DNA of 49,790 nt from a virus: positions 1-49,790 of the IMG/VR virus record IMGVR_UViG_3300046167_000452. One strand, given 5' to 3'. Each line of letters opens with the position of its first letter. Within the stretch, counting starts at the first letter, position 1. This document shows, one piece after another, positions 9,662 to 42,904 of the stretch. The notes beneath the pieces were generated by a model that saw nothing but the letters and a program-made list of their open reading frames with translations, did not search any database and was not told the origin of the DNA. A program made the position numbers and the translations under genes.

Positions 9662-9934
9662 ATGGCTAAGACTTCTGACTACTATAAAAAGAACCCTGCT
9701 GCACGTAAGCGTCGTCTGAAGCAGCAGGCGAAATATAACAAGACTAAGAAGGCTACAGATAAGCGTGTTGAACTCAACCGTGAGAATCGTAAGCGTGGAA
9801 CATACGGTAACGGTGATGGTAAGGATGTCTCGCATACTAAGTGCGGGACAACCGTCCTAGAGAAAGCATCAACTAACCGTGCGAGAAATCGTGACAAACT
9901 TAAGTGTAACCACAAAAAGAAAAAGAAGAAATGA
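9662..9934 (+). CDS. small, very basic conserved phage protein
   Basis: 90 residues starting MAKTSDYYKKNPAA and ending in a lysine run. The family (SDYYKKNPxAxxRRLKQQAxYN, later ASTNRARNR) is widespread in cyanophages and usually sits beside an HNH nuclease gene, as here. The high Lys and Arg content suggests nucleic-acid binding, possibly in packaging. The function is not established. Its stop overlaps the next ATG (AAATGA). Confidence 0.65.
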   Translation: MAKTSDYYKKNPAARKRRLKQQAKYNKTKKATDKRVELNRENRKRGTYGNGDGKDVSHTKCGTTVLEKASTNRARNRDKLKCNHKKKKKK

Positions 9935-10302
9935 CACCACTACTTCCTACCTCTGACCACTACCTTTACAACCTAATAGCAATGACAAGCCCCGAAGCTA
10001 AACGCCTTTGGAGGCGTGCGATCAAAGAACACTTTGGTCAGACTTGTGTGTATTGCGGAAAATCTTATGACATTAATGAACTTACAATCGACCATGTGCA
10101 ACCCCGTAAACGAGGGGGAGAAGATTTGGATAGTAACTGTGTCTGCGCTTGCAGCACATGCAATCAGAGAAAAGGAAGTACCAATTGGCAAGACTGGATG
10201 AGGAATGAGTTTGGACTCAGGCCTCTCCGGGAATACATCATAGAAAAGCATATTTATGGATCTAGGAGACAAGCACCAAACTACGCCACGGGAAGCAACT
10301 AA
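9931..10302 (+). CDS. HNH endonuclease
   Basis: 123 residues, with an in-frame alternative start at 9982 (MTSPEAKRLWRR). All parts of the HNH fold are visible: a first zinc knuckle (CVYCG), the catalytic IDHVQPRKRGGED segment, and a second knuckle with the final N and K (CSTCNQRKGS). HNH nucleases next to terminase genes often take part in phage DNA packaging cleavage, and this one lies about 2 kb upstream of the large terminase. A free-standing homing enzyme is the alternative. Confidence 0.85.
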   Translation: MTPLLPTSDHYLYNLIAMTSPEAKRLWRRAIKEHFGQTCVYCGKSYDINELTIDHVQPRKRGGEDLDSNCVCACSTCNQRKGSTNWQDWMRNEFGLRPLREYIIEKHIYGSRRQAPNYATGSN

Positions 10303-13833: not shown

Positions 13834-13835
13834 GC

Positions 13836-13856
13836 AGATCACCACCCTATACAGGG
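13836..13856 (+). repeat. 21-bp exact direct repeat, copy 1 (copy 2 at 20681-20701)
   Basis: The 21-base string starting AGATCACCACC and ending CTATACAGGG occurs just after the terminase stop and again inside the RNA polymerase gene, in the same orientation. A chance match of this length in 50 kb is very unlikely. This noncoding copy also forms a 7-bp inverted repeat (CCACCCT and AGGGTGG) with the following bases. Confidence 0.8.
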
Positions 13857-13884
13857 GAGGGAAGGGTGGACCCGAACCTGTGCC

Positions 13885-13925
13885 GAAGGAAGGAACTCGT
13901 GTCTAACGACACTCCTTCCTTCTTT
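13885..13925 (+). terminator. strong intrinsic terminator after the terminase gene
   Basis: A 10-bp perfect stem (GAAGGAAGGA with TCCTTCCTTC) encloses a second 5-bp stem (GTGTC with GACAC) and is followed by a short T run. It sits at the end of the late transcription unit. Confidence 0.8.
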
Positions 13926-14074
13926 ACTAAGACATCCTTGAATGATGTCATCTTAAGTACTACTACTAACTACTAACTACTGAATCCAGTGAAACCCTGG
14001 GAAGACCGCCAATCCATCACGGAACGAAGTGGAGTCTCTCTCCCCCTGTTTCTACTTATACTATTACCCCACCT

Positions 14075-14353
14075 ATGAAGATACAAGAGTTTGAACTGAA
14101 TACTCAATACATGAGGTACGAATATCACCGTGTTAGAGAAGGACCAAACTATTTTGTCAGTTACTATAAAAATTCCTCAAGACTTCACTATGACCCTAAA
14201 AACTGTTGGCGTACTCTTGGTACTGCTAAGTTCACTGATACTGGTAAAGCTCTCAAAGAATGGTGTCTCCTGATGGATGATACCTACGGGGAAGAGCAGA
14301 AAGAGGGTTATGCTGATAATTCCTTTGCTAATGAGACTAAGATGGTCACATGA
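14075..14353 (+). CDS. small hypothetical protein
   Basis: 92 residues starting MKIQEFELNTQ, with several aromatic residues (YMRYEYHRV, YFVSYYKN), flanked by the terminase terminator and another hairpin that begins at its own stop codon. It looks like a free-standing unit at the late/early boundary. I do not recognise a family. Good hairpin boundaries and codon use like its neighbours support a real gene. Confidence 0.5.
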   Translation: MKIQEFELNTQYMRYEYHRVREGPNYFVSYYKNSSRLHYDPKNCWRTLGTAKFTDTGKALKEWCLLMDDTYGEEQKEGYADNSFANETKMVT

Positions 14354-14391
14354 AGCGTTTAAACAGGGCTAATCGCTTCATCCTTTAAATT
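14351..14391 (+). terminator. stem-loop after the 92-residue ORF
   Basis: A 7-bp perfect stem (TGAAGCG with CGCTTCA) with a 16-base loop overlaps the stop codon and is followed by an AT-rich tail ending in TTTT. It is a probable weak intrinsic terminator. Confidence 0.5.
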
Positions 14392-14525
14392 TTGGCAGAA
14401 ATGTCTGAAGCCTATCCGCTATTGGAGCTGGGAATATTTACCCCCCGGTGGGGGTGTTACTTTGCTCGCCAGTTGATTGGATTGAGAATCTAATCGATTC
14501 ATCTTATTTTTTCGTTGATATCGTG

Positions 14526-14571
14526 ATTTATTCTTGATTTATTCTCAATAAACACTATTTATTCTCAATAA
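14526..14571 (+). repeat. AT-rich direct repeats (iteron-like)
   Basis: The 15-mer ATTTATTCTCAATAA occurs twice (14537-14551, 14557-14571), and a partial copy of its first 9 bases occurs at 14526-14534. The spacing between the two full copies is 20 bases. Confidence 0.7.
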
Positions 14572-14837
14572 CTCTCTAAATCTCACAACATCTGTCCGCA
14601 ATTAATATTATCTATGATTAAGAATAGAAGACAATACTAATTCATATCAACAATGTAATACTATCACCTACTCACTGTGTATTAATATCACACTCACACT
14701 CATAGCATTAGTAACAGACAACACCCTCAATACATTTAGTGCGAGCTACTCGCTCACTAACACTGCATAGCCACACCATAACCACAGCTTATCAGTACAC
14801 ATAAGCACAGCTCATCTAACAATAGGTATTTATACTC

Positions 14838-14866
14838 TATCCAAAACCTGTGCAACCATGTATATT
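14838..14866 (+). promoter_or_regulatory. sigma70-like early promoter P1 (weaker -35)
   Basis: TATATT at 14861-14866 as -10, with a TATCCA -35 candidate 17 bases upstream. The spacer shares AAACCTGT and the downstream TATATTA with the stronger promoter at 14988, so the two look like related duplicates. Confidence 0.45.
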
Positions 14867-14987
14867 AGAACAGTGGAGGAAAGGAGGCGAGAACCCCACT
14901 CGCTAAACCACCAACACCATCGTAACTCAGTAGAACTGGAAACCAGAGTCGAACTGTTACAACATTGTTAAGAAGCCACCAAGGCAC

Positions 14988-15016
14988 TTGACAAAACCTG
15001 TCCACCCTGCTATATT
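14988..15016 (+). promoter_or_regulatory. strong sigma70-like early promoter P2
   Basis: Consensus TTGACA at 14988-14993 and TATATT at 15011-15016 with an ideal 17-base spacer. It points toward the early genes and is the best candidate for host-RNA-polymerase early transcription. Confidence 0.75.
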
Positions 15017-15029
15017 AATAGGGTAGACA
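14999..15029 (+). promoter_or_regulatory. dyad operator overlapping promoter P2
   Basis: TGTCCACCCT and AGGGTAGACA form a 10-base inverted repeat (9 of 10 matching) centred on the -10 box. A bound repressor here would block polymerase. Confidence 0.55.
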
Positions 15030-15158
15030 AAAAACAAGTTCATCGGGTTCTTTAATTAGAACACATCGTAGTTAACAACTGCGACTCACCAGAGGTAACC
15101 CTGTCCTGGGAGATGAATGAATAACAACCCAAGTTCGTATCGGGGAGTTAGTGCAATC

Positions 15159-15183
15159 TTATAGTGAACACAACTCACTATAA
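15159..15183 (+). promoter_or_regulatory. 9-bp stem-loop in the early leader
   Basis: TTATAGTGA and TCACTATAA form a perfect 9-bp stem with a 7-base loop, about 40 bases before the first early ORF. It may be an RNA processing site, a leader hairpin or a protein-binding dyad. Confidence 0.5.
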
Positions 15184-15200
15184 ACCCTTGTGATTATTAT

Positions 15201-15214
15201 ATTCACACACATCA
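15201..15214 (+). repeat. ATTCACACACATCA leader motif, first of about nine copies
   Basis: The same 13-14 base A/C-rich motif recurs just upstream of early starts: exact at 15201, 15479 and 16374, one base short at 16670, and variants at 15868, 17092, 17594, 18451 and 19837. Where an ATG follows, it is usually 2-15 bases away, and only a few of these starts have a Shine-Dalgarno sequence. Confidence 0.75.
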
Positions 15215-15221
15215 AATCATT

Positions 15222-15395
15222 ATGGCAATGTATAACCCATGTGTAACTAAAAGAAGCTCTCGCCCTATCACTGAAGTAAAAGTTCAGGGTGGCAAAAAGA
15301 GACATGGTTCACATCGTTCTACAATCATTGGTAAGTATCAGTTTAAAACTAAACCTGTTACTAACTTAAACCAGCCTGGTATTATCTGGCAATAA
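15222..15395 (+). CDS. small early hypothetical protein (57 aa)
   Basis: An ATG seven bases after the early leader motif opens a 57-residue frame (MAMYNPCVTKRSSRPITE) ending at TAA 15395. It is basic and Ser/Thr-rich (GGKKRHGSHRST). The leader motif, the start position and the hairpin terminator shortly after the stop argue for a real gene despite its small size. It would be the first product of the early transcript. No family is recognised. Confidence 0.55.
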   Translation: MAMYNPCVTKRSSRPITEVKVQGGKKRHGSHRSTIIGKYQFKTKPVTNLNQPGIIWQ

Positions 15396-15428
15396 GCCAC
15401 CTATCCACCTGGCTATATTCTTTCAACT

Positions 15429-15450
15429 AACTATCACATGTTGATAGTTT
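15429..15450 (+). terminator. stem-loop between early genes
   Basis: AACTATCA and TGATAGTT make an 8-bp perfect stem with a 5-base loop, followed by T residues. A second small hairpin (TGAAGG with CCTTCA) lies just downstream. Confidence 0.55.
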
Positions 15451-15494
15451 TCTGAAGGATTATCCCTTCATTCTTTACATTCACACACATCACT

Positions 15495-15794
15495 ATGTTC
15501 AACTTTACTATCACTCGTTCATCATCATCTATCGTTGCAGTTAACTGTCAACTATCATCTGGCTTTGTCCTTGTTACATTCAAGAGTGGTAAAACCTACT
15601 CTTACACTAATGTTAGCAAGCGAGCTATCATTCAACTCTGGTTAGATTATGCATTCACCACTGAGAACATCTCACTTGGTTTCTGGGTTAATAACAACTG
15701 CATTCGTCCTAATCGTGTTCGTTATGCAAATGTAACTGGCTTGGTTGATTACTATGGTTCACCTGAGAACTACTTTGCATCTGCAACTGTTTGA
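15495..15794 (+). CDS. KTSC-domain-like early protein
   Basis: 99 residues. The pattern (SIVAVNCQLSSGFVLVTF, then SGKTYSYTNVSKRAI, then SLGFWVNNNC) fits the KTSC fold, a small beta domain in which strands present LxVxFxxGxxYxYxxV. KTSC proteins are common in phages and usually of unknown role, sometimes linked to nucleic-acid processing. The exact leader motif ends two bases before the ATG. A second, more divergent KTSC-like gene lies at 16815. Two hairpins follow the stop. Confidence 0.65.
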   Translation: MFNFTITRSSSSIVAVNCQLSSGFVLVTFKSGKTYSYTNVSKRAIIQLWLDYAFTTENISLGFWVNNNCIRPNRVRYANVTGLVDYYGSPENYFASATV

Positions 15795-15801
15795 TAACCT
15801 A

Positions 15802-15851
15802 GAGTTCGTTCTAGAACTCACTTATCCACCTGGGTAGTTTAACACCTACCC
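15802..15851 (+). promoter_or_regulatory. paired hairpins after the KTSC gene
   Basis: GAGTTC/GAACTC (15802-15819) and GGGTAG/CTACCC (15832-15851) are two perfect 6-bp stems in the intergenic gap. The second is followed by TTTCT. They may act as an attenuator, a terminator or a processing site. Confidence 0.45.
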
Positions 15852-15885
15852 TTTCTCACTAAATAACATTCACACTCATTCACCT

Positions 15886-16374
15886 ATGTCTAACAACACT
15901 CTACTAACTGGCTCTATCCGTGAGCAATACATTGCAATGCGATTCAAAAACAATGAGCCTAGCAATGTTGATGTAAACAACCTCTCTGATTCATTTATGA
16001 AAGAACAACTTGATTATGATGCTTGGTATGAATCCAAGCCTCTAGAATATCAGCTCTTCATTGATACAATTGCAGAGCGAACTAACTTCATCATTGATGA
16101 GGCAGATTATGATACCTTCATCGAAGAGTTAGCTAACTATGGTATCAACGATGTTTCTGATTTCGAAGATGCATTCAATGGAGAATGTGAGGGTTATGGT
16201 GAGCGAGTATTCGCTGAGTTTAGTGAAGAACTAGTTGAATCATGTGGTTACACTATTGAACCAGAATTCATTGCCAATTGTATTGATTGGGAATTAGTTT
16301 GGTATTCTGCACTTCGTTATGATTATCAAGCGATTGAGTTCAAAGGTAACACCTACTTCTTCCACAATATCTAA
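15886..16374 (+). CDS. ArdA-like antirestriction protein
   Basis: 162 residues and very acidic. The order DFEDAFNGECEGYGERVFAEFSEE, then a C-terminal segment with EPEFIANCIDWELVW and YDYQAIEFKGNTYFF, follows the ArdA pattern (EAFxGxY, FAEE, IPxxLxxYIDxExxxR, FxxxxGxYxVF). ArdA proteins mimic bent DNA and block type I restriction enzymes. T7 places a different DNA mimic, Ocr, first among its early genes, so the location fits. It starts after a variant of the early leader motif. I am fairly sure of the family by eye, less sure of activity. Confidence 0.65.
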   Translation: MSNNTLLTGSIREQYIAMRFKNNEPSNVDVNNLSDSFMKEQLDYDAWYESKPLEYQLFIDTIAERTNFIIDEADYDTFIEELANYGINDVSDFEDAFNGECEGYGERVFAEFSEELVESCGYTIEPEFIANCIDWELVWYSALRYDYQAIEFKGNTYFFHNI

Positions 16375-16404
16375 TTCACACACATCATTCACCCGGAGTT
16401 TCTT

Positions 16405-16668
16405 ATGACTACTGCCTATTGCTTATCTTATGAGTACCTTGACTATTCACATCGTGATGAAGTAGATACAAGCACAGATAAAGCTGCTATTCTTAAACAA
16501 TACAACTCATTCGTTGCTGAGTGTAGAGAAGCGGATGATTTCGATGAAATTGATTACATTAGTGTAGAAGAAGTTATTGTAGAACTAAACGAAGATGGTT
16601 CAATTGATGATATCATTGATTATGGTGATGTTATTGCTGAAACTCAATTCGTAGAACCTGGTGAATAA
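16405..16668 (+). CDS. small, highly acidic early protein
   Basis: 87 residues with a strong excess of Asp and Glu (READDFDEIDYISVEEVIVELNED is representative of the second half). Such a charge suggests a DNA-mimic or inhibitor, and it follows an ArdA-like gene, but I see no family signature. The exact early leader motif lies upstream at 16374-16387, with a GGAG sequence closer to the ATG. Confidence 0.55.
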   Translation: MTTAYCLSYEYLDYSHRDEVDTSTDKAAILKQYNSFVAECREADDFDEIDYISVEEVIVELNEDGSIDDIIDYGDVIAETQFVEPGE

Positions 16669-16703
16669 CATTCACACACATCGGAGTTAATTACTCCTTC
16701 CCT

Positions 16704-16775
16704 GGGCTATTAGTGAAACGGTTATCACAACACTCTGTCTAAGTGTAAGTAGCAGTTCGATTCTGCTATAGCTCG
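16704..16775 (+). tRNA. tRNA-like gene, probable tRNA-Asp (anticodon GTC)
   Basis: A full cloverleaf folds by eye: acceptor GGGCTAT with ATAGCTC (one G-T pair), D stem GTGA/TCAC with a GG-containing loop, anticodon stem ACACT/AGTGT with loop CTGTCTA (T33, anticodon GTC), a 4-base variable region, and T stem AGCAG/CTGCT with loop TTCGATT. The base after the acceptor is G, the usual discriminator for Asp. CCA is not encoded. The T at position 37 is unusual. It lies between two early genes, directly upstream of a KTSC-like ORF. Confidence 0.7.
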
Positions 16776-16814
16776 TTGACACAATCCCGTGTCATTCTAT
16801 CCAAGTTAAATAAC

Positions 16815-17042
16815 ATGTTCTTGAACGTAAACATCAGCCCAGTATCATCCTCAGTTGCAGACTTGCGACTCAATGCAGTTACTAACCAAGCATTGGTTAA
16901 GTATCAAGGCTCTGAGAATGTGTACCTCTATGATAATGTATCGTTCGATGCTATCTTAGATTTTGTCACTGGTGAATTCGAGTCAGTTGGTAAGTTTGTC
17001 AATGCATATTGCAAGCCTATGATGACAACAATCTGCAAGTGA
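16815..17042 (+). CDS. second KTSC-like early protein
   Basis: 75 residues from ATG 16815. An upstream TTG frame exists at 16776, but it would begin on the base after the tRNA. The pattern (LRLNAVTNQALVKYQG, VYLYDNVSFDAILDF, SVGKFVNAY) resembles the KTSC gene at 15495. A strong terminator lies 18 bases after the stop, so the tRNA and this gene may close one early unit. Confidence 0.6.
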   Translation: MFLNVNISPVSSSVADLRLNAVTNQALVKYQGSENVYLYDNVSFDAILDFVTGEFESVGKFVNAYCKPMMTTICK

Positions 17043-17059
17043 TTTCCTCACTAAATATA

Positions 17060-17083
17060 CCTCTCCTTCGGGAGGGGTTTTTT
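17060..17083 (+). terminator. intrinsic terminator with TTCG loop
   Basis: CCTCTCC and GGAGGGG form a 7-bp stem (one T-G pair) with a TTCG loop and six T residues. It is a textbook rho-independent terminator. Confidence 0.9.
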
Positions 17084-17108
17084 AATGCCCTTTCACACTC
17101 ATAATCGC

Positions 17109-17381
17109 ATGGACGCACCTAACAGAACAGATGAATTAATGGAATTAACACTTCCTGATATGTGGGCCTCACCACTAATTAATGATGACCCTACAGGGTT
17201 ATCTGATGAGGATTATGAGACATTTACTGAGTTCTGTGATAACGAACTACGTGGTATGCATTGTCTTGATGTTAAAGACGATTCTACCTTTGTTACTTAT
17301 CACGATGCTAGGCAATATGTACTAGCAGGCTCTTGTTCAACCTTTGTATTTCTTCCACTAAGTAATGACTACACCTACTGA
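17109..17381 (+). CDS. small acidic hypothetical early protein
   Basis: 90 residues from ATG 17109 (MDAPNRTDELMELT). An in-frame ATG at 17085 almost touches the terminator T-run, whereas 17109 follows a TTTCACACTCAT leader variant, so I choose the latter. The protein is acidic in its first half (TGLSDEDYETFTEFCDNE) with a beta-like end. No family is recognised. The next ORF starts 17 bases before its stop. Confidence 0.55.
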   Translation: MDAPNRTDELMELTLPDMWASPLINDDPTGLSDEDYETFTEFCDNELRGMHCLDVKDDSTFVTYHDARQYVLAGSCSTFVFLPLSNDYTY

Positions 17382-17541
17382 AACTACTATCATCCTTGCA
17401 ATTATAGGGATGCTAGGACTATTTGCTACAGCCACAGTTTATCAACGTTCCAATCGTATTACATCTAGATATTATGCCAAAAGCAGGCTTTCAAACCGTA
17501 TGGGTACAGAAACAACTGAAGAAGTTGAAGCTCAAAGCTGA
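17365..17541 (+). CDS. small single-pass membrane protein
   Basis: 58 residues. A strongly hydrophobic segment (IILAIIGMLGLFATATVY, residues about 9-26) predicts one transmembrane helix, followed by a basic cytoplasmic-type region and an acidic tail. It overlaps the previous gene by 17 bases. It could modify the host membrane early in infection. The function is unknown. Confidence 0.5.
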   Translation: MTTPTETTIILAIIGMLGLFATATVYQRSNRITSRYYAKSRLSNRMGTETTEEVEAQS

Positions 17542-17584
17542 AGCTATTAAAGCACAGTTTATCAAGCCTAATGAAATCATCTAA
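17474..17584 (+). CDS. tiny basic ORF overlapping the membrane protein gene
   Basis: 36 residues (MPKAGFQTVWVQKQLKKLKL and a short tail) in a different frame, overlapping the end of the membrane protein gene. Its stop lies just before a copy of the early leader motif. It is Lys-rich and helical. It may be a real microprotein, but its size makes this uncertain. Confidence 0.35.
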   Translation: MPKAGFQTVWVQKQLKKLKLKAEAIKAQFIKPNEII

Positions 17585-17607
17585 TTCACAGTCATCACAC
17601 ACATCAC

Positions 17608-17784
17608 ATGGACGCACTCACCCTTGGAGGTACTTATTTGAATATGTATGACGTTGTTCTTTCAGTTAGTGGTGTTGTAAACATCCTAGCTCGGGACAAA
17701 GAGACAGCTGCTTATAACGCACTAGAACTAAGTCTTGACCGTGAGGAAACATTAATCGACGTGAGGTTATCAGATGAGTGGTAA
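17608..17784 (+). CDS. small early hypothetical protein (58 aa)
   Basis: 58 residues (MDALTLGGTYLNMYDVVLSV...), with the ATG two bases after a TCACACACATCAC leader copy. Its codon pattern (VVLSVSGVVNILARDKETA, ALELSLD) looks like a small alpha/beta domain. It overlaps the next gene by 11 bases. No family is recognised. Confidence 0.5.
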   Translation: MDALTLGGTYLNMYDVVLSVSGVVNILARDKETAAYNALELSLDREETLIDVRLSDEW

Positions 17785-18136
17785 GAAACAACCATACCTA
17801 GACAACAACTGGCAGGCTTATGCAGATGCACCTGCCGAACTATTTGAATCATGCGAATTCGAGGAGTTTATGGATTGGAAAGGGTGCTCATGGGAGTTAC
17901 CTGCAACCGTTAAATGTCTCATTCGCACACAGAATAAGAAGACAGGTAAGGTCAAAGAGTATACCTACCGTCAAGCTGCAGCTGCTGAAAAGAAGATTCA
18001 AGCACTGTTAGATAAACCCGAACTTGAGTTCACTGTTGTGGACCAAGCTTCAATGCACTTTATTATCCCCGAACTATTACACCATGAAGAAATCAACGAA
18101 ATCGGTTCTGACTTCCCGTTTGATGAAGGAGATTGA
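17774..18136 (+). CDS. hypothetical early protein (120 aa)
   Basis: 120 residues (MSGKKQPYLDNNWQAYADAP). It has an acidic Cys/Trp-containing first part (ESCEFEEFMDWKGCSWELP), then a basic middle (RTQNKKTGKVKEYTYRQAAAAEKK), and an acidic end. It may be a small regulatory or host-takeover protein. The next ATG lies inside its last codons. The function is unknown. Confidence 0.55.
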   Translation: MSGKKQPYLDNNWQAYADAPAELFESCEFEEFMDWKGCSWELPATVKCLIRTQNKKTGKVKEYTYRQAAAAEKKIQALLDKPELEFTVVDQASMHFIIPELLHHEEINEIGSDFPFDEGD

Positions 18137-18224
18137 GGCACACCCTCATCGTGATGAATTGCTCACACTCATGGCACAGCAGGTACAAGAGGATACGCAC
18201 ATCCTGCAAACTGTAAAACTGTAA
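18123..18224 (+). CDS. tiny early ORF (33 aa)
   Basis: Short frame from ATG 18123, in an overlap with the previous gene (MKEIEAHPHRDELLTLMAQQ...). A longer version back to 18024 is only a shadow of the previous gene. The helical, acidic sequence ends shortly before the ribbon-helix-helix ORF. Support is weak. Confidence 0.35.
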   Translation: MKEIEAHPHRDELLTLMAQQVQEDTHILQTVKL

Positions 18225-18254
18225 AGTAGTATATGTGACACTGCACAAAGTTCC

Positions 18255-18407
18255 TTGAAGCGAGTCACTGCACTTTTAACATTTGAGACTCACCGTAAGC
18301 TTAAGGAACTATCGTTTTCTCAAGGGCGGACCCTTATTCAAATCTTACAGGAAGCAGTCGATGATTACCTAGCAAAGGCTGGTCCCGTTAGGGCAAAGGA
18401 CAAGTAA
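18255..18407 (+). CDS. ribbon-helix-helix (CopG/Arc-like) DNA-binding protein
   Basis: 50 residues with a probable TTG start. The pattern is that of a ribbon-helix-helix dimer: a short beta strand (KRVTALLTFE), helix one (THRKLKELSFSQG), then the turn and helix two (RTLIQILQEAVDDYLAKAG). Proteins of this class bind operator dyads as repressors. It lies just before the MarR-like and integrase genes and about 3 kb downstream of the dyad at promoter P2, so it is a candidate regulator of the early unit or of integration. The TTG start is inferred, because the frame has no ATG. Confidence 0.55.
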   Translation: MKRVTALLTFETHRKLKELSFSQGRTLIQILQEAVDDYLAKAGPVRAKDK

Positions 18408-18461
18408 TCAGCAACACTGCTGTAAAACTGCAATTCATCATAGGCATGTCGCACACAACAC

Positions 18462-18632
18462 ATGACAATCTTTGACCTTGGTCCCCTTTATGTAGGGACT
18501 GATCCTCGGTTTGACTTATCTATCCATCTAGGTAGATTCGTGATACAATGGGATTGGTCACCTACACACCATGGACCCACTGAGGAGACAACAAACAGAT
18601 GCGAAAGTTCTGAGGGTATTAACTGCCCTTGA
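18462..18632 (+). CDS. small hypothetical protein (56 aa)
   Basis: 56 residues from ATG 18462 after a GCACACAACAC leader variant (MTIFDLGPLYVGTDPRFDLS). The beta-strand-rich first half (SIHLGRFVIQWDW) looks protein-like. Its 3' third overlaps the MarR-like gene in another frame. It is supported by leader position and composition only. Confidence 0.4.
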   Translation: MTIFDLGPLYVGTDPRFDLSIHLGRFVIQWDWSPTHHGPTEETTNRCESSEGINCP

Positions 18633-18924
18633 GAAGCTTAGGGAGCTTAATCGAGAGTTTCCTGCACAACTGTTATCCACCTTGCTATATGTTGCAGCTC
18701 ATAAAGACTGCCACAAACAAGCAATGGAGGAAGATCTTGATTTAACTACTGCCAGTGGTAGTAGGAATACAGATCTATTGTCACACTCACACCGCCTTGG
18801 TAAGGAAGGATTAGGTCTCATTATTAAAGAACCTGATCCATCCAATGGTAGGCGACTGCAACTAAGACTGACATTAGAAGGTCAGTGCTTAATAGACACC
18901 TTAAAGGAGATCCTTTATGACTGA
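18571..18924 (+). CDS. MarR-like winged-helix transcriptional regulator
   Basis: 117 residues. A winged helix is visible: helices with LLSTLLYVAAHKDCHKQAM, recognition part (LDLTTASGSRNTDLLSH), then a wing with LIIKEPDPSNGRRLQLRLTL. This is the arrangement of MarR-family repressors. A regulator of this type next to the integrase suggests control of integration or early expression. It overlaps the integrase start by 8 bases, so the two are co-expressed. Confidence 0.7.
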   Translation: MDPLRRQQTDAKVLRVLTALEKLRELNREFPAQLLSTLLYVAAHKDCHKQAMEEDLDLTTASGSRNTDLLSHSHRLGKEGLGLIIKEPDPSNGRRLQLRLTLEGQCLIDTLKEILYD

Positions 18925-24714: not shown

Positions 24715-24832
24715 TGCTGAGAAAGAATACTGGGGTTACTTAGTTAAACCCAACCCACCTACAGCAGAAGCTATTAAGCGAGCTGCATTTATTGATAAGA
24801 CCTACGTTTGGAAAACTAATGCTGGTGTTTGA
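24674..24832 (+). CDS. small conserved-looking protein before DNA polymerase
   Basis: 52 residues in another frame, starting inside the last 40 bases of the helicase gene and ending 14 bases inside the polymerase start. The sequence (EYWGYLVKPNPPTAEAIKRA, then FIDKTYVW) looks like a real folded peptide. It is positioned like small cyanopodovirus genes between gp4 and polymerase. The function is unknown. Confidence 0.5.
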   Translation: MPSNKNSIQQQISNAEKEYWGYLVKPNPPTAEAIKRAAFIDKTYVWKTNAGV

Positions 24833-25346
24833 CATTGAGACAGATGGTTTCATCAGTCAAGTCTCAACTATTCATTGCCTTGTAATTCATGATACGGAGG
24901 AAAACGAAACGTTCACGTACAGCGATAAAGGGCATAACGACCCTGTGGTTCGAGGTGTGCAGCTGCTGGATCAAGCGGACTGCATTTCTGGTCATAACAT
25001 TATTGGCTACGATATACCTGTCATCCACAAGCTCTATCCCTGGTTTAATCGCAATACTGGCGTGGCTGATACTTTATTGCTTAGCCGTCTTGTCCATCCT
25101 AACTTGATGGAGATTGACAAGAAAAACAAATGGAAACATATGCCATTACAACTATATGGGAGACACTCACTAGAAGCTTATGGACACCGCTTAGGTGAAT
25201 ATAAGGGTGAGTTCTCCAAGCACACAGACTGGAAGGAATGGTCCCCTGAAATGGAGCTTTACTGCCAGCAAGATGTAAAAGTAACCACCAAACTATGCGA
25301 TCACTTTGCAACCCGCCTGGATGGGTACAACTCGAATACGAAGTAG
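24819..25346 (+). CDS. DNA polymerase A, fragment 1 (3'-5' exonuclease domain)
   Basis: Start at ATG 24819 (MLVFDIETDGF); an in-frame TTG at 24792 is less likely. The exonuclease motifs are present: DIETDG, then HNIIGYDIPVIHKL, then the late YCQQDVKVTTKL with its catalytic Asp. In T7 this domain proofreads. The frame is lost after residue ~165: a base is missing between 25311 and 25322, and homologous sequence (WVQLEYEVAHIL) goes on in another frame. One polymerase gene is therefore spread over four frames in this window. Confidence 0.85.
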   Translation: MLVFDIETDGFISQVSTIHCLVIHDTEENETFTYSDKGHNDPVVRGVQLLDQADCISGHNIIGYDIPVIHKLYPWFNRNTGVADTLLLSRLVHPNLMEIDKKNKWKHMPLQLYGRHSLEAYGHRLGEYKGEFSKHTDWKEWSPEMELYCQQDVKVTTKLCDHFATRLDGYNSNTK

Positions 25347-25573
25347 CACACATTTTACAGGAACAAGAAGAATATGGATGGAGATTTAACGAGAGAGCTG
25401 CATGGGAACTTGCATCGACTCTCCGAAGTGAGTTGGAGGAAACTCAAGGGGTACTACGAAACAGGCACCCTTTCGTCTTCGGATCGGAATTTACTCCTAA
25501 ACGAAATAACAAAACACAAGGCTATGTGGAAGGATGTCCCCTTCACAAAGCTGAAAGATTTCTCTCCTACTAG
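25295..25573 (+). CDS. DNA polymerase A, fragment 2
   Basis: Real coding sequence starts around 25322 (WVQLEYEVAHILQEQEEYG) and continues to about 25545; the ATG at 25295 is not a true start. This is the linker between exonuclease and polymerase domains, matching the T7 gp5 region with a characteristic WRFNERAAWEL. The frame ends because a CCCC tract at about 25543-25546 has one C too many. Without it the sequence runs on as GCPFTKLKDFSPTSRDHIAW. Confidence 0.75.
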   Translation: MRSLCNPPGWVQLEYEVAHILQEQEEYGWRFNERAAWELASTLRSELEETQGVLRNRHPFVFGSEFTPKRNNKTQGYVEGCPLHKAERFLSY

Positions 25574-26306
25574 CAGAGATCACATTGCATGGATCCTTAC
25601 TACTCACTACTCATGGACACCAGAACTACTAACAGCAACAGGCAAAGCAATTATCGACGAGACAACACTCTCGAAGATAGACAACGACTTTGCGCGTGGA
25701 TGTCTGAGGATCTTGGATTTGACGAAGAAGCTAGGGATGCTTGCCGAAGGGCAGAACGCATGGCTCAAGCTTGTTACGAGTGCTGAGAGGATTCATCATC
25801 ACTGTTCAATATCCACATCAACCCATAGAGCAGCACACCGAAACCCCAATCTTGCCCAAGTACCATCCGACCTCGCTTATCGAGCATTGTTCAGAGCTTC
25901 TGAAGGAATGCGGATGGTTGGCGCAGACTTGTCTGGAATTGAGTTGCGGATGCTTGGTAGTTATCTATCTAAGTATGATGGTGGTGCCTACGTTGACATC
26001 TTGCTCAACGATGACATTCACCAAGTTAATGCAGACAAGATTGGAATATCTCGCAGGCTTGTCAAGACCGTAACCTATGCCTTTCTATATGGCGCAGGTG
26101 ATGAAAAAATAGGAAAGAGTTATGACCAAAGCTTACCCACGAACAAGGCTAAATCAAAGGGCAAAGAAATACGTACCGCATATGTTGAGGCCATTGACGG
26201 ACTTGACACTCTTCTACTTAATGTCAGGAAGGCGGCGGATCGAGGATACATTAAGGCGATTGATGGTCGCAGGATACCAGTAGACAGTCACCCCATAAAG
26301 CCTTAA
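25374..26306 (+). CDS. DNA polymerase A, fragment 3 (palm/fingers, motifs A and B)
   Basis: Genuine sequence begins around 25546 (FTKLKDFSPTSRD); what precedes it in this frame is a shadow. Motif A (GADLSGIELRML) carries the first catalytic Asp. The O-helix/motif B region has RRLVKTVTYAFLYGAG with Lys and Tyr. The end (DGRRIPVDSHP) is cut off just before the next conserved block by loss of one C at 26291-26294. Because motif C is in the next frame, this fragment alone cannot be an active polymerase. Confidence 0.85.
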   Translation: MDGDLTRELHGNLHRLSEVSWRKLKGYYETGTLSSSDRNLLLNEITKHKAMWKDVPFTKLKDFSPTSRDHIAWILTTHYSWTPELLTATGKAIIDETTLSKIDNDFARGCLRILDLTKKLGMLAEGQNAWLKLVTSAERIHHHCSISTSTHRAAHRNPNLAQVPSDLAYRALFRASEGMRMVGADLSGIELRMLGSYLSKYDGGAYVDILLNDDIHQVNADKIGISRRLVKTVTYAFLYGAGDEKIGKSYDQSLPTNKAKSKGKEIRTAYVEAIDGLDTLLLNVRKAADRGYIKAIDGRRIPVDSHPIKP

Positions 26307-27715: not shown

Positions 27716-27971
27716 GGAATGGTCTGAATTCCATGAAGCCTATCACCACGAACCACTAGATCACGTCTTAAAAGAACTAGCTGATCTAGTTTATGTCTGC
27801 TATCAATATGCCGCCCATGAGGGTTGGAATCTAGACGAAGCTATGAACCGTCTACATGAATCCAACCTATCCAAGCTCGATGAAAACGGAGACCCTATCT
27901 TCAGAGCTGATGGCAAAGTACTAAAGGGACCAAACTATCAACCACCATATCTTGGCGACCTAATTAAATGA
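27612..27971 (+). CDS. MazG-like nucleotide pyrophosphohydrolase
   Basis: 119 residues. The all-alpha NTP pyrophosphohydrolase pattern is visible: AKEFRTVFQ at the start, SLIDEEWSEFHEAY with the metal-binding E-E-x-x-E, and later LKELADLVYVCYQYAA with E-x-x-D. It ends in LSKLDENGDPIFRADGKVLKGP, a tail common in phage MazG proteins. Possible jobs are hydrolysing unwanted nucleotides or modulating ppGpp. The only start in frame before the conserved part is TTG, 104 bases inside the DUF3310 gene. The stop overlaps the RNR start (ATGA). Confidence 0.75.
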   Translation: MNTLLQQAKEFRTVFQVSPTFSQNGRSTQKSLIDEEWSEFHEAYHHEPLDHVLKELADLVYVCYQYAAHEGWNLDEAMNRLHESNLSKLDENGDPIFRADGKVLKGPNYQPPYLGDLIK

Positions 27972-29344
27972 CACCTTCACTTATTTCTCGTACCGGACGT
28001 GTGCAGAGTTGGATCGATGATCCTACTTCCCGGTTACCCGTATCATGCACAGTTTTTGAAGTACAGAATGAGATGGACACTGCTGACGGCATTGAAGCCA
28101 GTTGGCGTTTCTGCTCCTATGCACTTAGGCATGGAGCGGGTGTTGCTATTCACTTATCAAACTTAGATCCTGCAGGACATGTACGCCCATCAGGCGTTAT
28201 GGCCTCTGGTCCTGTTTCCTTTGCAAAAATCTATTCAGTACTAAATGAAACGTTACGACGTGGGGGGCATTATAAGAATGGTGCCGTTGTATGCCATCTT
28301 GACGCTGACAATGCTGACCTTCTTAGCTTTATTCAGACCCCGAGAAGTGAACTCCCCTGGGTTAAACGATGCGTCAACATTGACCAAGAAAAGTGGGACA
28401 ACCTTGACCGTGGAGTTAGAGACGCCCTCCTCCAAGGTATTAAGAAAGGGGATATCTGGCTCAATAAAATAAAATTCGATAAAGATGGAAAACGAATCAG
28501 AGGAAATGTATGTCTTGAAGTGTACTTGCCTTCAAGAGGAACCTGCTTACTCCAGCACGTCAATCTCGGTGCCTGTGAGTTCGAAGACATTCCAAAGGCT
28601 TTTGCTTCAGGTATGTCCGAATTGTGTGGACTCCATGCTACTACAAATGTCGGGAAAGATAGAGAGTACCTCTCACCCGAGGTGGACCGTCAAGTTGGAC
28701 TCGGGATGCTTGGTCTTGCAAACTTGCTCAGACGGTACGGAGTAACTTACCAACAATTTGGTGATGCACTTGAGCAGTACAACAATTTAGATGTAGTACA
28801 TACACCAGCATTTGAGCTGGTAACAAAATTAGCAGAGGGCATTAGAACAGCAGCAACTATTGCCCGAGAATACAAGATGGTTAGAGCGTTTGCTATTGCT
28901 CCTACCGCGTCCTGTAGCTATAGGTCACAAGACCTTAGTGGTTACACATGCTGCCCTGAAATTGCACCACCTATTGCAAGATCAGTGGACCGTGACTCTG
29001 GCACCTTTGGTGTGCAGACGTATGACTATGGTGACGTAGAAATTGCGTCAGAAGTTGGTTGGGATGATTATAAAGCTGTCGCTGATGGCATTATGAGAAT
29101 CTTGGACCGTACTGGACTTCTTCACGGATACAGCTTCAACTCATGGAGTGACGCGGTAACCTACAACGATGAGTTTGTTGAAGAGTGGCTGAAATCGCCC
29201 CAGACTTCACTCTATTACTCCTTACAGGTAATGGGTGATGTTCAGGACAAATCAGACGCTTACGCTGCATTAGATGCAGAGGATGTCGATAGGTACTTGA
29301 ACGAAATTTTAAATAATGAACCAGATTGCGATTGTGCAGAATGA
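27968..29344 (+). CDS. nrdA: ribonucleotide reductase class I alpha subunit, short cyanophage form
   Basis: 458 residues, far shorter than bacterial NrdA because the N-terminal ATP-cone is absent. Catalytic hallmarks are present: an early cysteine (PVSCTVFE), NVCLEV (the N-x-C-x-E of the active site), a second cysteine in TCLLQHVNLG, and the LYY pair (TSLYYSLQ), the radical-transfer tyrosines of class I enzymes. The C-terminus CDCAE supplies the redox cysteines. It makes deoxynucleotides for replication. The beta-like gene starts in the overlapping ATGA, supporting a class I pair. Confidence 0.85.
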   Translation: MTPSLISRTGRVQSWIDDPTSRLPVSCTVFEVQNEMDTADGIEASWRFCSYALRHGAGVAIHLSNLDPAGHVRPSGVMASGPVSFAKIYSVLNETLRRGGHYKNGAVVCHLDADNADLLSFIQTPRSELPWVKRCVNIDQEKWDNLDRGVRDALLQGIKKGDIWLNKIKFDKDGKRIRGNVCLEVYLPSRGTCLLQHVNLGACEFEDIPKAFASGMSELCGLHATTNVGKDREYLSPEVDRQVGLGMLGLANLLRRYGVTYQQFGDALEQYNNLDVVHTPAFELVTKLAEGIRTAATIAREYKMVRAFAIAPTASCSYRSQDLSGYTCCPEIAPPIARSVDRDSGTFGVQTYDYGDVEIASEVGWDDYKAVADGIMRILDRTGLLHGYSFNSWSDAVTYNDEFVEEWLKSPQTSLYYSLQVMGDVQDKSDAYAALDAEDVDRYLNEILNNEPDCDCAE

Positions 29345-37605: not shown

Positions 37606-37977
37606 ATGACCTACGAATTATATGAAGACAATCCCGACACGTACCTGTCCGCTGTAAACAGTGTTCTATCTGCCATAGGTCAGGCACCTGTGTCCGAAGT
37701 AGATATGAATAACCCTGAGGTTATGATGATCCTTCAGATTGTTAAAGAAGTATCTAAGGATCTACAGAATGAAGGTTGGATCTTTAATACTGAAGAGCGG
37801 TTGTGTTGGCAGCCTGACGAGAATGGATACATACCCATCCCCAATGATGTTCTAAGACTAGACATTAGCGATGGACAATACATTAAGAATACAGATGTAG
37901 TCAGACGGCCAGGCGCTAAACCTGTCGTGGATGCACCAACACTAAAACCTAAGAAGAGGAAGAAATGCGACTGCTAA
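37606..37977 (+). CDS. tail tubular protein A, N-terminal half (split gene)
   Basis: 123 residues. Residues 1-95 are the usual start of T7 gp11-type tail tube A: YLSAVNSVLSAIGQAPVSEV, then a stretch with LQIVKEVSKDLQNEGWIFNT and PIPNDVLRLDIS. The protein then departs into a Pro/Lys-rich tail (KPVVDAPTLKPKKRKK) ending CDC. The second half of the same family appears at the C-terminus of the next ORF, whose ATG lies in the last codons here (AAATGCGACTGCTAA). The two products may reassemble, or a -1 frameshift could fuse them. Confidence 0.8.
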   Translation: MTYELYEDNPDTYLSAVNSVLSAIGQAPVSEVDMNNPEVMMILQIVKEVSKDLQNEGWIFNTEERLCWQPDENGYIPIPNDVLRLDISDGQYIKNTDVVRRPGAKPVVDAPTLKPKKRKKCDC

Positions 37978-39539
37978 AGATTGGAAGTAGAACGTGCCCA
38001 GCATGTACTGCAAACAAGAGGTTTGATAAAGAGATTGCTTGGCAGTTAGGATATGAACTAGTTGATATCTATAAAGGCACAGCAGATTATGATGCAATAC
38101 AAAGTGTACGGGAAAGGTTTACCAAACAAGGTTATAAACTATCGTTCCCAACGTATGTATTTGTAGATGAGCAGCTAGAAATATTAGGTTCTGTGTCTGA
38201 TGTAAGCACACCTAGTATGTTTAAGTCAGCACTGCAGGCTTGTCTTCATAGAAGTCCTAAGCCTAAGGGAGAGGTAATGGACTGTACACCTAAAGGTGAG
38301 CAGTGTGGTGCAGCTAACTTTGTGAACTGGATCATCCTCACTGGTGAAGATGGTCATGTCGTTCGCTATGACAAGCGAGAAGATAAGGGTTGCAAGGCTT
38401 TTGGTGACGGCATCGCACCACTACATAGGAATACTAAATATACTTATGAGTTATTCAGTACCTTTGCTGACCCTGGTCAAGGTCAAGGTGAAGGCAGAAT
38501 CTTACATAGGATCACCAATGGTGGCCGTAAGTTGGAGATGGAAGAGTCCGAAGACATGGACTACACTGACCTAACTATCGAGATGGCTCCCGGTTACGGT
38601 ACTTTTGAATGGACAAGTGACACCACTGGTATTCTTACTGTCCCCGAAACTTGTGGTGACGCTCCTGGTCTAGGTGACCATGACTGTAATGATAAGGAAA
38701 CACTAGCTAACTGTGTACCTACCACCATCTTCACGGAGATGAATAACATCCCTAGGTTCTATAGCCATGTATGGGATAGGGCTAAGATCTCCTCAGTAGC
38801 TGTATTGAATATCTATGATGAGCAAGAGCACCGTGTTGTTGTTGAGTTCAATAGGAACGTCTGTGACCTACCTGACATAGCTAACTCTTGGTGTCTATGT
38901 AATGACATCACAGCAGCTGGTGCAGGAGACTCAGACTACGGTAAAATCATGGAGGTTTTATCAGTCGATATCACAGCACTAAATGAGAATACCTTTGAGT
39001 ACTTCTTCTACGGTACTATCGAACAAGAGCATGGAATTAATGATAAAGCATTTGTTCCTTCCTGCCTTACGTTCTACTGCTGTAACAACGGTGGTGGTGG
39101 TAACGGTTGTGAAGATGGTAGACCTGATGGGAACATTGACATTGGAGATGGTGATGGAGATGGTCTAGGAGATTGCGATAAGCGACCTACACCTGAGCCT
39201 GTACCTGGGTCTAATGATCGTAACCCTGTCTATCTATATGACAGGTTGAATCATACCTATATCTTCTGCTGTCCTATCAAGGCTGATGTAACTTGGCTAC
39301 TGCCATTCGATACACTACCTCCTGTATTCCAGAGATACATCACAGCGGTTGCATCAGTAAGAGCAGCTGCACAGATGAATGCTAACCCACAGCTATTCCA
39401 GCTACTGAAAGATAGAGAGAATACATTGAGGATGGAATGTATGAACTATGAATTAGAACAGGGTGATCTTAACTTCTTAAATCAACCTGATCATTCTACA
39501 TACCTTAGCTATCAAACTATGCAAACATTAAATAGATAA
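37965..39539 (+). CDS. thioredoxin-fold + unknown insert + C-terminal half of tail tubular protein A
   Basis: 524 residues. Residues 1-95 form a thioredoxin/glutaredoxin-like fold: KIGSRTCPACTANKRF with the CxxC active site and SFPTYVFVDEQLEIL with the cis-Pro strand. Residues about 105-410 are an unknown Cys-rich beta region (for example PETCGDAPGLGDHDCNDK), ending in a Gly/Asp-rich linker. The last ~105 residues (YLYDRLNHTYIFCCPIKADV, LPPVFQRYITAVASVRAA) are the missing C-terminal half of tail tube A. The tail gene therefore carries a ~1.3 kb insertion. It probably builds an unusual tail-tube gatekeeper ring. Confidence 0.8.
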   Translation: MRLLKIGSRTCPACTANKRFDKEIAWQLGYELVDIYKGTADYDAIQSVRERFTKQGYKLSFPTYVFVDEQLEILGSVSDVSTPSMFKSALQACLHRSPKPKGEVMDCTPKGEQCGAANFVNWIILTGEDGHVVRYDKREDKGCKAFGDGIAPLHRNTKYTYELFSTFADPGQGQGEGRILHRITNGGRKLEMEESEDMDYTDLTIEMAPGYGTFEWTSDTTGILTVPETCGDAPGLGDHDCNDKETLANCVPTTIFTEMNNIPRFYSHVWDRAKISSVAVLNIYDEQEHRVVVEFNRNVCDLPDIANSWCLCNDITAAGAGDSDYGKIMEVLSVDITALNENTFEYFFYGTIEQEHGINDKAFVPSCLTFYCCNNGGGGNGCEDGRPDGNIDIGDGDGDGLGDCDKRPTPEPVPGSNDRNPVYLYDRLNHTYIFCCPIKADVTWLLPFDTLPPVFQRYITAVASVRAAAQMNANPQLFQLLKDRENTLRMECMNYELEQGDLNFLNQPDHSTYLSYQTMQTLNR

Positions 39540-39541
39540 AT

Positions 39542-42500
39542 ATGGCTAGCGTTTCACAAGTAATCCCGAATTATGTTCAGGGTATGTCACAACAACCGGA
39601 CCAACTTAAGGTGCCGGGACAATTAAAAGATTTAGTCAATGCCTACCCTGACGTAACACGTGGATGCATGAAGCGTCTAGGGTCTAAGAAGATTGCACAG
39701 CTAGGTTCAGCACCTGATGGTACTTGGTTTGCTATTGATAGGGGGCGTGATCCTGCTAATCAATACATAGGTAACATCAGCTCTGGCCTGTATTCAGGGC
39801 AAGTACAGATCTGGAACATGCTAGGTCAACAGTGCAATGTGATGTACTCACCTGAACCTTATGATGATCCAGATCGTGAAGGTAAGCCTGGGTTAGTGAG
39901 TAGGTATCCCAATAATTATAGCTACTTAGTACCAGACAGGAACCCTTTATACAATCCTAATTCAGATAGAAATCAATACGAGAAGTATAAGAAGTTAAAA
40001 GTATTTCAAGGTGACGGTAAAGTCTTTGTCTTGAATGATCAAGTAGTTCCTAAGCTAACTGCTGATGATGTTAACGATGACGAGATGTGGCATGAAGCAT
40101 TCGTCAGCCTACGTCAGGTGCAGTATCAAAGAGATTACCTCTTAGCGTTTGACGATCCAATGAAGAATGATTCTGAGGAGAACATCTCATGGGACTACGC
40201 TAAAGGTATCAGTGATGTGCAGTTCGTAGAAGGTAGTCCTAATAAGAGAGATCCATTCCCTGAAGATAAGATCGGAATGGTTTGTGATCTATCAATGGGT
40301 TATCAAACAGCAGACATCACTGCAACTGAGACAGACACAGGAGGTAAGATACAATTAGTATCTAGTTCTAATCCTGATGGAGAAGATCTTAGGATCAGTC
40401 TAGAGGTTGTCTGTGTCACACAACAGGTAAGAGAAGGTAGTGGAGAGAAGACAAACTACTTATGGCAAGCTGACTACACACCACGTCTACAATTAATTAA
40501 AGGTGGTAAGAACTGGAAGGACGGTGATATAATTGTCATCAGATACCAGGCTGACCAATTCATTAATAGTGAGTGGAGGAAGTGGGGTTCATCTGATGGT
40601 TGGGTAGAGATTAGTTTTAGGATTGGTGGTAGCGGTACACAAACCGTCCAAGCTGATATCGGATACATCTCTGTCAAGACTGACATCGCTACTGGTGATG
40701 AACAGATCCCATTTGCTAGTGCTAACGATATTATCACTGGCTTCTGCTTTGCATTAGAAGCAGCTGGAGCCTTCCCACTTAAGTATGACGAGGAAGGTAA
40801 CGAGGTTGTAGGTGAGAATATGTACACCGAACCTGATACTGTTACTGTGTCATTTGGTGGTAGTGGTGACGAACGAGTCACTGAAGATGTAGACGGACCT
40901 GATGATAATAGAGAGAAGTTCCTAGAAGGAATGGATATTAGATTTAAACCTGTCGGTAATGGCATCTACATGCAACGCCGAGCTAATAGAAATAATGGAG
41001 AGGCATCGTTCAATCTGGTAACACCAGAAGAACAGTTGTTCAACCATATGTCTACTAAGAAAAGAGGTGAGTGGTACTCAGTTGTCAATAGTGTCACACG
41101 TCTTCCTAACCAATGCCGTCATGGCTACATGGTACAGATTGCTAACTCTGATTCAGAGGATGATGATTACTACCTGAAGTTTGAAGGCAACACTGACACT
41201 GATGGTGAAGGTGTATGGCGTGAGTCCGTTAAGCCTGGCATGAGAGTAGGACCAGTGTTCAGCACTATGCCACATGAGATCATCCGTATTGATGAATCAA
41301 CCTTTGTCGTTACTCCAATCAAATGGCAGAAGCGTGAAGTAGGTGATGAGAACACAGCACCAACTCCTTCTTTCTTACCTATCAAGGGTGGAGAGAAACG
41401 AGGCTTCTTACGTTCAATTACAGGCATGGCCTGGTATAGGAATCGCTTTGTCTTAATGGCAGATAAACATGTCTGTTGTTCAGCTGCAGGTGATTACTAT
41501 AACTTCTGGCCACGTACTGCAATGACAGTCAGTGAGGATGATCCTATTGATATCCAAGCTGCAGGTGAATTTCCAACACCACTTGTACAGTCTATGGAGA
41601 CAACAGCTGGCCTGGTGATGTTCACTAAGGAAGAGCAGTTTCTGTTTACTACAGATGCTGATATGTTGAAACCTCAGAGTGCAAAGATAATGTCACTCTC
41701 TAGCTATAACTGTAACCCTCACGTACCACCTATCAAGATAGGACAGAACATTGGATTCATATCTGATGCTGGTCTCAATGATAAGTTCTTTGAGATGTCT
41801 GGTGTTAGTAGGGAAGGTTCAGAACCTAGTGTTGTTGAACTATCTAAGCTAATTGAACCACGACTTGCTGATAACAATCAGTTACTAGCTCATTCAAAGA
41901 GCAACATGACTGTATTCATTGGTAAGTACTGGGATCCCGAGTGGCTACAAGCTCCACAGAACACCACTGAGGTGACCTGTGAGGGCACTGAAGTTAACCC
42001 TTGGGCAATGTATGAGGCAGAACAGATTAGAGAGGTGTGGGGCTATAAGTACTACGACAACGGTAGAGAACGAGTTCAGTCAGCATGGTTCAGGTGGGTC
42101 TTTGATTGGCCTATTTGTTTCCACGTCTGTATGGATGATAACTACTACCATGTAATACATAACGGTGGTGATACAGAGCTAAGGGTTATCGGCATGAAGC
42201 ATGAAGATAACTTGATGGCTGCATACTTAGATGGTCACTACAATCAGATGTTGCCTGGTGAATGTTTCTATGAACAGGACGGTAACACTGTATTCCCGAT
42301 TGATAGCGAGTTCCATCGTAATGATGAATGCTATTACTTTGAGATGTATAACATCCATGATGCTATTAAGGAGTACACTTGTGGTGAAGAATACACACCA
42401 ATATACTCTGGCTATAGTAAGCTATTCAACAACGTAGGTACAGACGATTGCAACAGGAAGTGGGCAGTATTGCCTGGCAACTGGTTAGAAGTATGTGGTG

Positions 42501-42904
42501 AAGAGATTGACCCTACTGATCCAGATAGTCCTTATCGCTTACTAGTTGGTAAGACATTTGACATGGTTGCTATCTTCCCTACTATCTATGTCACCAAAGC
42601 AGAAGGAGATAAGTCCCGATCTAAGTGGGATCCAAACCTAACAGTTCATAGAGCTAAGTTTAGTGTTGGTAAACCTTCTACATATCAAATACATATTAAA
42701 CGTAAATCAAGGGATCCAGTGGTTAAGTTCCACGATGTAGATTTTCCATACCCACGACAATCTGAGGAAGCCTTTACGCAACCTATTTATATGCGTAATG
42801 ATGAGATCCAGATGAAGATGGTATGTGGTGATCCACATGGAGGGATTCTCTATTCCATGCAATGGGAAGGAGACTTCAATCCCAAATGGTATAAGTATGT
42901 CTAA
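39542..42904 (+). CDS. tail tubular protein B (nozzle)
   Basis: 1,120 residues, larger than T7 gp12 (794) because of insertions in the middle. Family marks are clear: SQVIPNYVQGMSQQPDQLKV at the start, LVNAYPDVTRGCMKRLGSKK, WYRNRFVLMADKHVCCSAAG, FFGMS-type FFEMSGVSR, and near the end HRAKFSVGKPSTYQIHIKRK. It forms the lower tail nozzle below protein A and carries fibre attachment sites. The next start lies in an overlap at 42897. The gene seems free of indels. Confidence 0.9.
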   Translation: MASVSQVIPNYVQGMSQQPDQLKVPGQLKDLVNAYPDVTRGCMKRLGSKKIAQLGSAPDGTWFAIDRGRDPANQYIGNISSGLYSGQVQIWNMLGQQCNVMYSPEPYDDPDREGKPGLVSRYPNNYSYLVPDRNPLYNPNSDRNQYEKYKKLKVFQGDGKVFVLNDQVVPKLTADDVNDDEMWHEAFVSLRQVQYQRDYLLAFDDPMKNDSEENISWDYAKGISDVQFVEGSPNKRDPFPEDKIGMVCDLSMGYQTADITATETDTGGKIQLVSSSNPDGEDLRISLEVVCVTQQVREGSGEKTNYLWQADYTPRLQLIKGGKNWKDGDIIVIRYQADQFINSEWRKWGSSDGWVEISFRIGGSGTQTVQADIGYISVKTDIATGDEQIPFASANDIITGFCFALEAAGAFPLKYDEEGNEVVGENMYTEPDTVTVSFGGSGDERVTEDVDGPDDNREKFLEGMDIRFKPVGNGIYMQRRANRNNGEASFNLVTPEEQLFNHMSTKKRGEWYSVVNSVTRLPNQCRHGYMVQIANSDSEDDDYYLKFEGNTDTDGEGVWRESVKPGMRVGPVFSTMPHEIIRIDESTFVVTPIKWQKREVGDENTAPTPSFLPIKGGEKRGFLRSITGMAWYRNRFVLMADKHVCCSAAGDYYNFWPRTAMTVSEDDPIDIQAAGEFPTPLVQSMETTAGLVMFTKEEQFLFTTDADMLKPQSAKIMSLSSYNCNPHVPPIKIGQNIGFISDAGLNDKFFEMSGVSREGSEPSVVELSKLIEPRLADNNQLLAHSKSNMTVFIGKYWDPEWLQAPQNTTEVTCEGTEVNPWAMYEAEQIREVWGYKYYDNGRERVQSAWFRWVFDWPICFHVCMDDNYYHVIHNGGDTELRVIGMKHEDNLMAAYLDGHYNQMLPGECFYEQDGNTVFPIDSEFHRNDECYYFEMYNIHDAIKEYTCGEEYTPIYSGYSKLFNNVGTDDCNRKWAVLPGNWLEVCGEEIDPTDPDSPYRLLVGKTFDMVAIFPTIYVTKAEGDKSRSKWDPNLTVHRAKFSVGKPSTYQIHIKRKSRDPVVKFHDVDFPYPRQSEEAFTQPIYMRNDEIQMKMVCGDPHGGILYSMQWEGDFNPKWYKYV

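Follow-up and report, generated by a model that had tools for sequence, protein, structure and literature searches.

Two overlapping ORFs on the plus strand of the window (the whole stretch of viral DNA analysed, 49,790 nt long) encode the two halves of tail tubular protein A, known in T7 as gp11. The first ORF (37606..37977) specifies a gp11-N chain of 123 aa, in which residues 1-103 correspond to adaptor helices 1-2 and strands 1-3, and are followed by the linker AKPVVDAPTLKPKKRKKCDC. The second (37965-39539) specifies a protein of 524 aa, formed by a thioredoxin/glutaredoxin-fold (Trx) domain, a Cys-rich region, a linker and the gp11-C part (39228..39539, plus strand), which corresponds to adaptor strands 4-5, helices 3-4 and the C-terminal segment. 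The second start codon falls within the closing codons of the first gene, and the overlap measures 13 nt (37965..37977). ORF positions and overlap are exactly those given in the original prediction, which had described a tail tubular gene split by an insert. The split was confirmed, and the inner boundaries were corrected: the N half extends to about residue 103 (37914), 20 linker residues come after it, and the C half starts at about 39228.

Both halves were recognized in profile searches. The gp11-N chain matches positions 1-80 of the Pfam Tube family PF17212 (E 4e-18), and residues 423-501 of the second protein match positions 90-168 (E 1.2e-11). Both matches are well over the family cut-off, and the model is thus covered along its length, but by two ORFs. 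The significance of the C-terminal match had been set beforehand as a test of the split. The same division is seen with phrog_446, matched by residues 8-98 of the gp11-N chain with an E value of 1.4e-26. Among solved structures, the N half corresponds to T7 gp11 residues 12-95, and the C half to residues 102-187. The two half matches are the sole PF17212 matches in the near-complete 49,790-nt record, and an intact tail tube A, searched also in the contigs of related viruses sharing the split, was found in none of them. Members of PF17212 are usually, if not by strict definition, single polypeptides; this feature is missing here, as two overlapping ORFs in different frames are found in seven lineages. 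The split of gp11 is real in this virus. The term gatekeeper, used in the original prediction, is loose, because in T7 DNA gating is assigned to gp12, and gp11 forms a 12-fold adaptor ring (PMC6702177).

Relatives and selection

Ten further split contigs were found by scanning IMG/VR, and the 11 contigs obtained by including the window define seven lineages. One contig (L001) is of the window's own type (100%). The six added lineages are the group formed by L002, L003, L004 and L016, which is 83% identical to the window over the second protein, and L005, L006, L019, L020 and L022. The L020 contig stops inside the insert, its C half being unseen, and that of L016 stops just past the start of the second gene. 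All members of the split clade seen here are uncultured. A single-ORF gp11 carrying an insert was not encountered in the scans of viral contigs, and the cellular genomes searched with the C part yielded no relative. All the 20 next nearest contigs bearing gp12 (L031-L050) host one intact gp11 of about 200 residues, as do the cultured cyanophages P-SSP7, S-TIP37 and P-SSP3. In a tree of the gp11 core, split genes form a single clade (support 100/100).

Every part of the two proteins is under purifying selection, strongest on the gp11 halves and weaker on the insert. Relative to L003, dN/dS values are about 0 for the N half, 0.06 for the C half, and 0.2 for both the Trx domain and the middle region; relative to L019, the value for gp11-N is 0.11. 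In the latter comparison the middle region, with a dN of 0.85, is far more diverged than the halves (0.06 and 0.11).

Domains of the insert

The window insert comprises about 440 residues, counted across both chains. The second chain opens with the Trx domain (residues 1-95; 37965..38249, plus strand), marked by a CPAC motif and an invariant P62-T63. Profile comparison with PDB entries retrieved thioredoxin 1r26 (E 9e-6) and glutaredoxin 3nzn (E 1e-4). The AF2 model has the order b-a-b-a-b-b-a, with pLDDT mostly between 70 and 85, and Foldseek matched it to many thioredoxins with probability 1.00. As in thioredoxin/glutaredoxin proteins, a CxxC and a cis-Pro motif, the P-T ahead of strand 3, lie on the b-a-b-a-b-b-a fold, and residues 1-95 are a genuine thioredoxin/glutaredoxin fold, in agreement with the CxxC thioredoxin-fold domain originally predicted in the insert. 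Unlike stand-alone enzymes of this type, the domain is fused by its C end to a virion protein, and is absent in one relative. A comparison with 50,697 phage records provided no convincing match to the domain or the insert, and none to the Cys-rich beta region.

The Trx domain is followed by the hypervariable Cys-rich beta region (38250..39083, plus strand) announced by the original prediction, and by a Gly/Asp-rich linker, DGNIDIGDGDGDGLGDCDKRPTPEPVPG (39084..39227, plus strand), which leads back into gp11 and ends with conserved D-C-D and P-V-P-G motifs. Past the Trx domain, inserts contain 4-10% Cys; those complete on the C chain vary in length from 379 to 612 residues. The AF2 model of the 524-aa chain is poor except at residues 1-95, at residues about 250-373 and at the C-terminal helices, and for this reason the rest of the insert is given no identity. 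Residues 250-373 (38712-39083, plus strand) form the only confidently modelled beta domain, diverged forms of which occur across the clade. Foldseek matches of parts of the appendage to antibodies had low probability, and were set aside.

Appendage sequences are not confined to one chain. The N chain of L022 itself bears about 310 residues of appendage, and includes a domain related to the beta domain of the window (residues about 223-350). Residues 427-580 of the L020 C chain form a 150-aa domain that shares 62% identity with residues 142-290 of the L022 N chain, and this similarity between opposite chains indicates that the insert is modular, its modules being apparently exchanged across chains.

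Coupling of the two genes and alternative readings

In every lineage the ATG of the second gene is nested in the stop of the first or straddles it, as originally noted for the window. The overlap is 13 nt also in L003, 4 nt in L005, L006, L019 and L020, and 11 nt in L022. The second gene always opens with an ATG that marks the start of its first domain, and its frame relative to the first gene is -1 in six of the seven lineages and +1 in L022. In the window, direct reading of the sequence reveals a Shine-Dalgarno-like AGAGG (37955..37959, plus strand) 5 nt ahead of the second start codon; the sequence upstream of this codon varies among relatives, and L005 and L006 are among those lacking a Shine-Dalgarno signal at the junction.

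Two translationally coupled polypeptides provide the simplest reading of these data. The original prediction had contemplated either two coupled proteins building one tail subunit, or a -1 frameshift making a giant one. The former is supported, and the two products would assemble. Programmed -1 frameshifting within the 13 nt of overlap, fusing the frames into an adaptor of about 645 residues, might be suggested by the short overlaps and the prevalence of the -1 frame among second genes, and the last sense codon AAA before the TGA of L005 and L006 could slip one base. The +1 frame of L022 disallows a conserved -1 frameshift, however; moreover, no slippery X-XXY-YYZ heptamer occurs in the window overlap, read codon by codon as AAG AGG AAG AAA TGC GAC TGC TAA (37950-37977), RNA structure at the junction is weak (z -1.7), and each second gene has its own ATG at a domain boundary. 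Coupling of two chains is therefore preferred, and a frameshift looks very improbable. Removal of the insert by a split intein or an intron, restoring a plain gp11, would be suited by flanks that join to an ordinary gp11, one residue short; nonetheless, Pfam searches gave no intein family match and Rfam searches no intron match, and the insert is an open frame continuous with the C half, free to change its domains. In five of the seven lineages the N-side extension consists of 13-21 aa, too short for an N-intein, and splicing of either kind is even harder to credit than frameshifting. Split genes frequently prove to be artefacts: an ordinary gp11 that had picked up a passing insertion might have decayed, been assembled as a chimera or contain a sequencing frameshift. 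The same architecture is repeated in 11 contigs from several metagenomes, with differing overlaps, and dN/dS is low on both gp11 halves. Artefacts are already refuted by these independent relatives, and were rejected as having practically no chance of being correct.

A different alternative concerns the meaning of the Trx domain. According to the original prediction, a redox domain in the tail would make a new architecture, and disulfides could trigger or stabilize the structure. A functional switch, in which disulfide exchange in the tail stabilizes or triggers the adaptor, could account for the preservation of CxxC in all the six Trx-bearing lineages, as CPAC, CGPC or CGSC. Five lineages have both Cys67 (N chain) and Cys436 (C chain), L022 has neither, and they are missing in 18 of 18 aligned intact relatives; since the two are present or absent together, an inter-chain disulfide is possible, but the hint is weak, their co-variation amounting to one event within the clade. 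Moreover L019, which is nested inside the clade, has lost the Trx domain except for a stub, VKKIG, yet retains both the split and the Cys pair. The Trx domain appears on these grounds as a common yet dispensable component of the arm that the split does not require, and the constant feature is a split at the fibre dock accompanied by a variable appendage. Disulfide triggering of the tail is left unsupported, and a redox switch is regarded as improbable, albeit less so than the frameshift, splicing and artefact readings. The suggested connection with the thioredoxin borrowed by T7 DNA polymerase finds no support.

The fibre dock and its genomic setting

The adaptors of cyanophages P-SSP7 (gp11) and P-SCSP1u (gp22, PDB 8i4m) are the closest cultured relatives, 45-50% identical to the window in the N half and about 43-47% in the C half, and are encoded by an intact single gene. 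In P-SSP7 the stretches matching the two halves are only 3 nt apart, and the insert stands in place of one gp11 residue, between 'RNG' and 'LYD'. For L043, a relative with an intact gp11, the AF2 model (mean pLDDT 77) matches T7 gp11 (E 2.8e-14) and the P-SCSP1u adaptor (E 2.6e-13), and exhibits five strands (61-66, 80-85, 96-99, 102-105, 117-123). The insertion point coincides with the two-residue beta-turn N100-G101 between strands 3 and 4. In the T7 and P-SCSP1u adaptors the five-stranded lobe is the fibre dock, and tail fibres are held by it together with a dock on gp12 (PMC6702177, PMC10575957). As the break falls on this turn, at the tip of the lobe, the insert would hang from it.

The overall similarity to T7 gp11 (PF17212; PDB 6r21, 7box) is clear, since the two halves are homologous and in order, the gene position between capsid and gp12 is the same, and intact relatives have the same predicted fold. 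T7 gp11, in contrast, is one chain of about 196 residues, whereas here two chains carry an appendage of about 400-900 residues at the fibre-dock hairpin.

We consider it probable that this clade of T7-like cyanophages possesses a two-chain gp11 adaptor, encoded by coupled overlapping genes and bearing exchangeable appendages at the fibre dock. Helices 1-2 would come, with strands 1-3, from the N chain, and strands 4-5 from the C chain together with helices 3-4; homology and conservation of the halves suggest that the two chains fold together into a single protomer of the adaptor. From the fibre-dock lobe would hang a modular appendage, rich in Cys and in most cases starting with the thioredoxin-fold domain, in up to 12 copies per virion, if the T7 arrangement applies. 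By analogy, the appendage is plausibly outward-facing and exposed. Its variability suggests contact with the host; exposed position, modularity and fast change together point to an outward arm, swapped quickly between relatives, that may touch the host or carry fibres. At the least certain step, the CxxC domain would most likely be a folding or disulfide helper, or a structural module, for the Cys-rich appendage. A bolder version, which we hold only tentatively and think rather unlikely, makes the fibre dock a variable host-contact organ, where up to twelve exchangeable Cys-rich arms replace T7-type anchoring and the Trx fold would set disulfides, either in the arms or at the junction of the two chains.

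T7-like phages have branched or anchored fibre systems, in which separate fibre proteins sit on the gp11/gp12 tail hub. Exchangeable domains on this hub recall those described here, which are instead built into the adaptor itself. No description of such a split adaptor was found in the open literature. Gp11 is highly constrained in T7-like phages, yet the clade tolerates its being cut in two, and a two-chain gp11 offers a clear test of how the 12-fold ring is assembled. In the fibre-lobe hairpin a phage tail has a naturally permissive place for display, and abundant marine viruses may have here a second route to altered host contact.

The record also hosts genes for a T7-type RNA polymerase, psbA, ribonucleotide reductase, portal and nozzle, which identify the virus as a T7-like cyanophage. 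The split gp11 lies between capsid and gp12, in the P-SSP7 order; the ORF at 36033 was taken as the capsid gene from position and size. The gp12 nozzle gene (39542..42904, plus strand; 1120 aa; PF25675, E 2.5e-104) directly follows gp11-C, as in T7-like cyanophages, and the gp12 alignment contains no insertion comparable to that in gp11. ORFs cut by the right and left ends of the record correspond to positions 33-947 and 971-1361, respectively, of the same internal virion protein family. Because both ends cut one gene, the record looks circularly permuted (positions 1 and 49790), and is close to a whole genome, only about 24 codons seeming to be missing in that case. Exact terminal repeats of at least 12 nt do not occur in it.

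The T7-type fibre anchor PF03906, present in P-SSP7, S-TIP37 and P-SSP3, was not found in this genome, and a custom profile of two sequences retrieved nothing above noise. Its absence may reflect divergence beyond detection instead of loss, and is at most suggestive of an arm touching the host or carrying fibres.

Several other genes deserve mention. A 322-aa fibre gene of the Mtd_N type (1710-2678) features the Major tropism determinant N-terminal domain PF18454 (E 4.6e-9), which is found also in S-TIP37, and is absent from P-SSP7 and P-SSP3. A Cys-rich ORF of 147 aa (1274-1717), lacking PHROG matches, overlaps the end of the gp16-like gene and lies where one might look for a fibre gene of the P-SSP7 type. 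An 818-aa protein (3669-6125) with DUF285 (PF03382) near the C end is probably a fibre or adhesin. An HNH endonuclease gene (9931-10302) is located between a large ORF without family matches (6956-9661) and the terminase. The interval 13834-18570 includes only short ORFs and a tRNA-Asp (16703-16776), and an integrase is found downstream at 18917. The ribonucleotide reductase large subunit (27968-29344) is short (458 aa), and the front of the family profile is missing. The DNA polymerase is encoded by two ORFs set 27 nt apart, 24792-25346 (184 aa, RNase_H_2/exonuclease-like) and 25374-26306 (310 aa, DNA polymerase I), which represent either a second split gene or an interrupted one.
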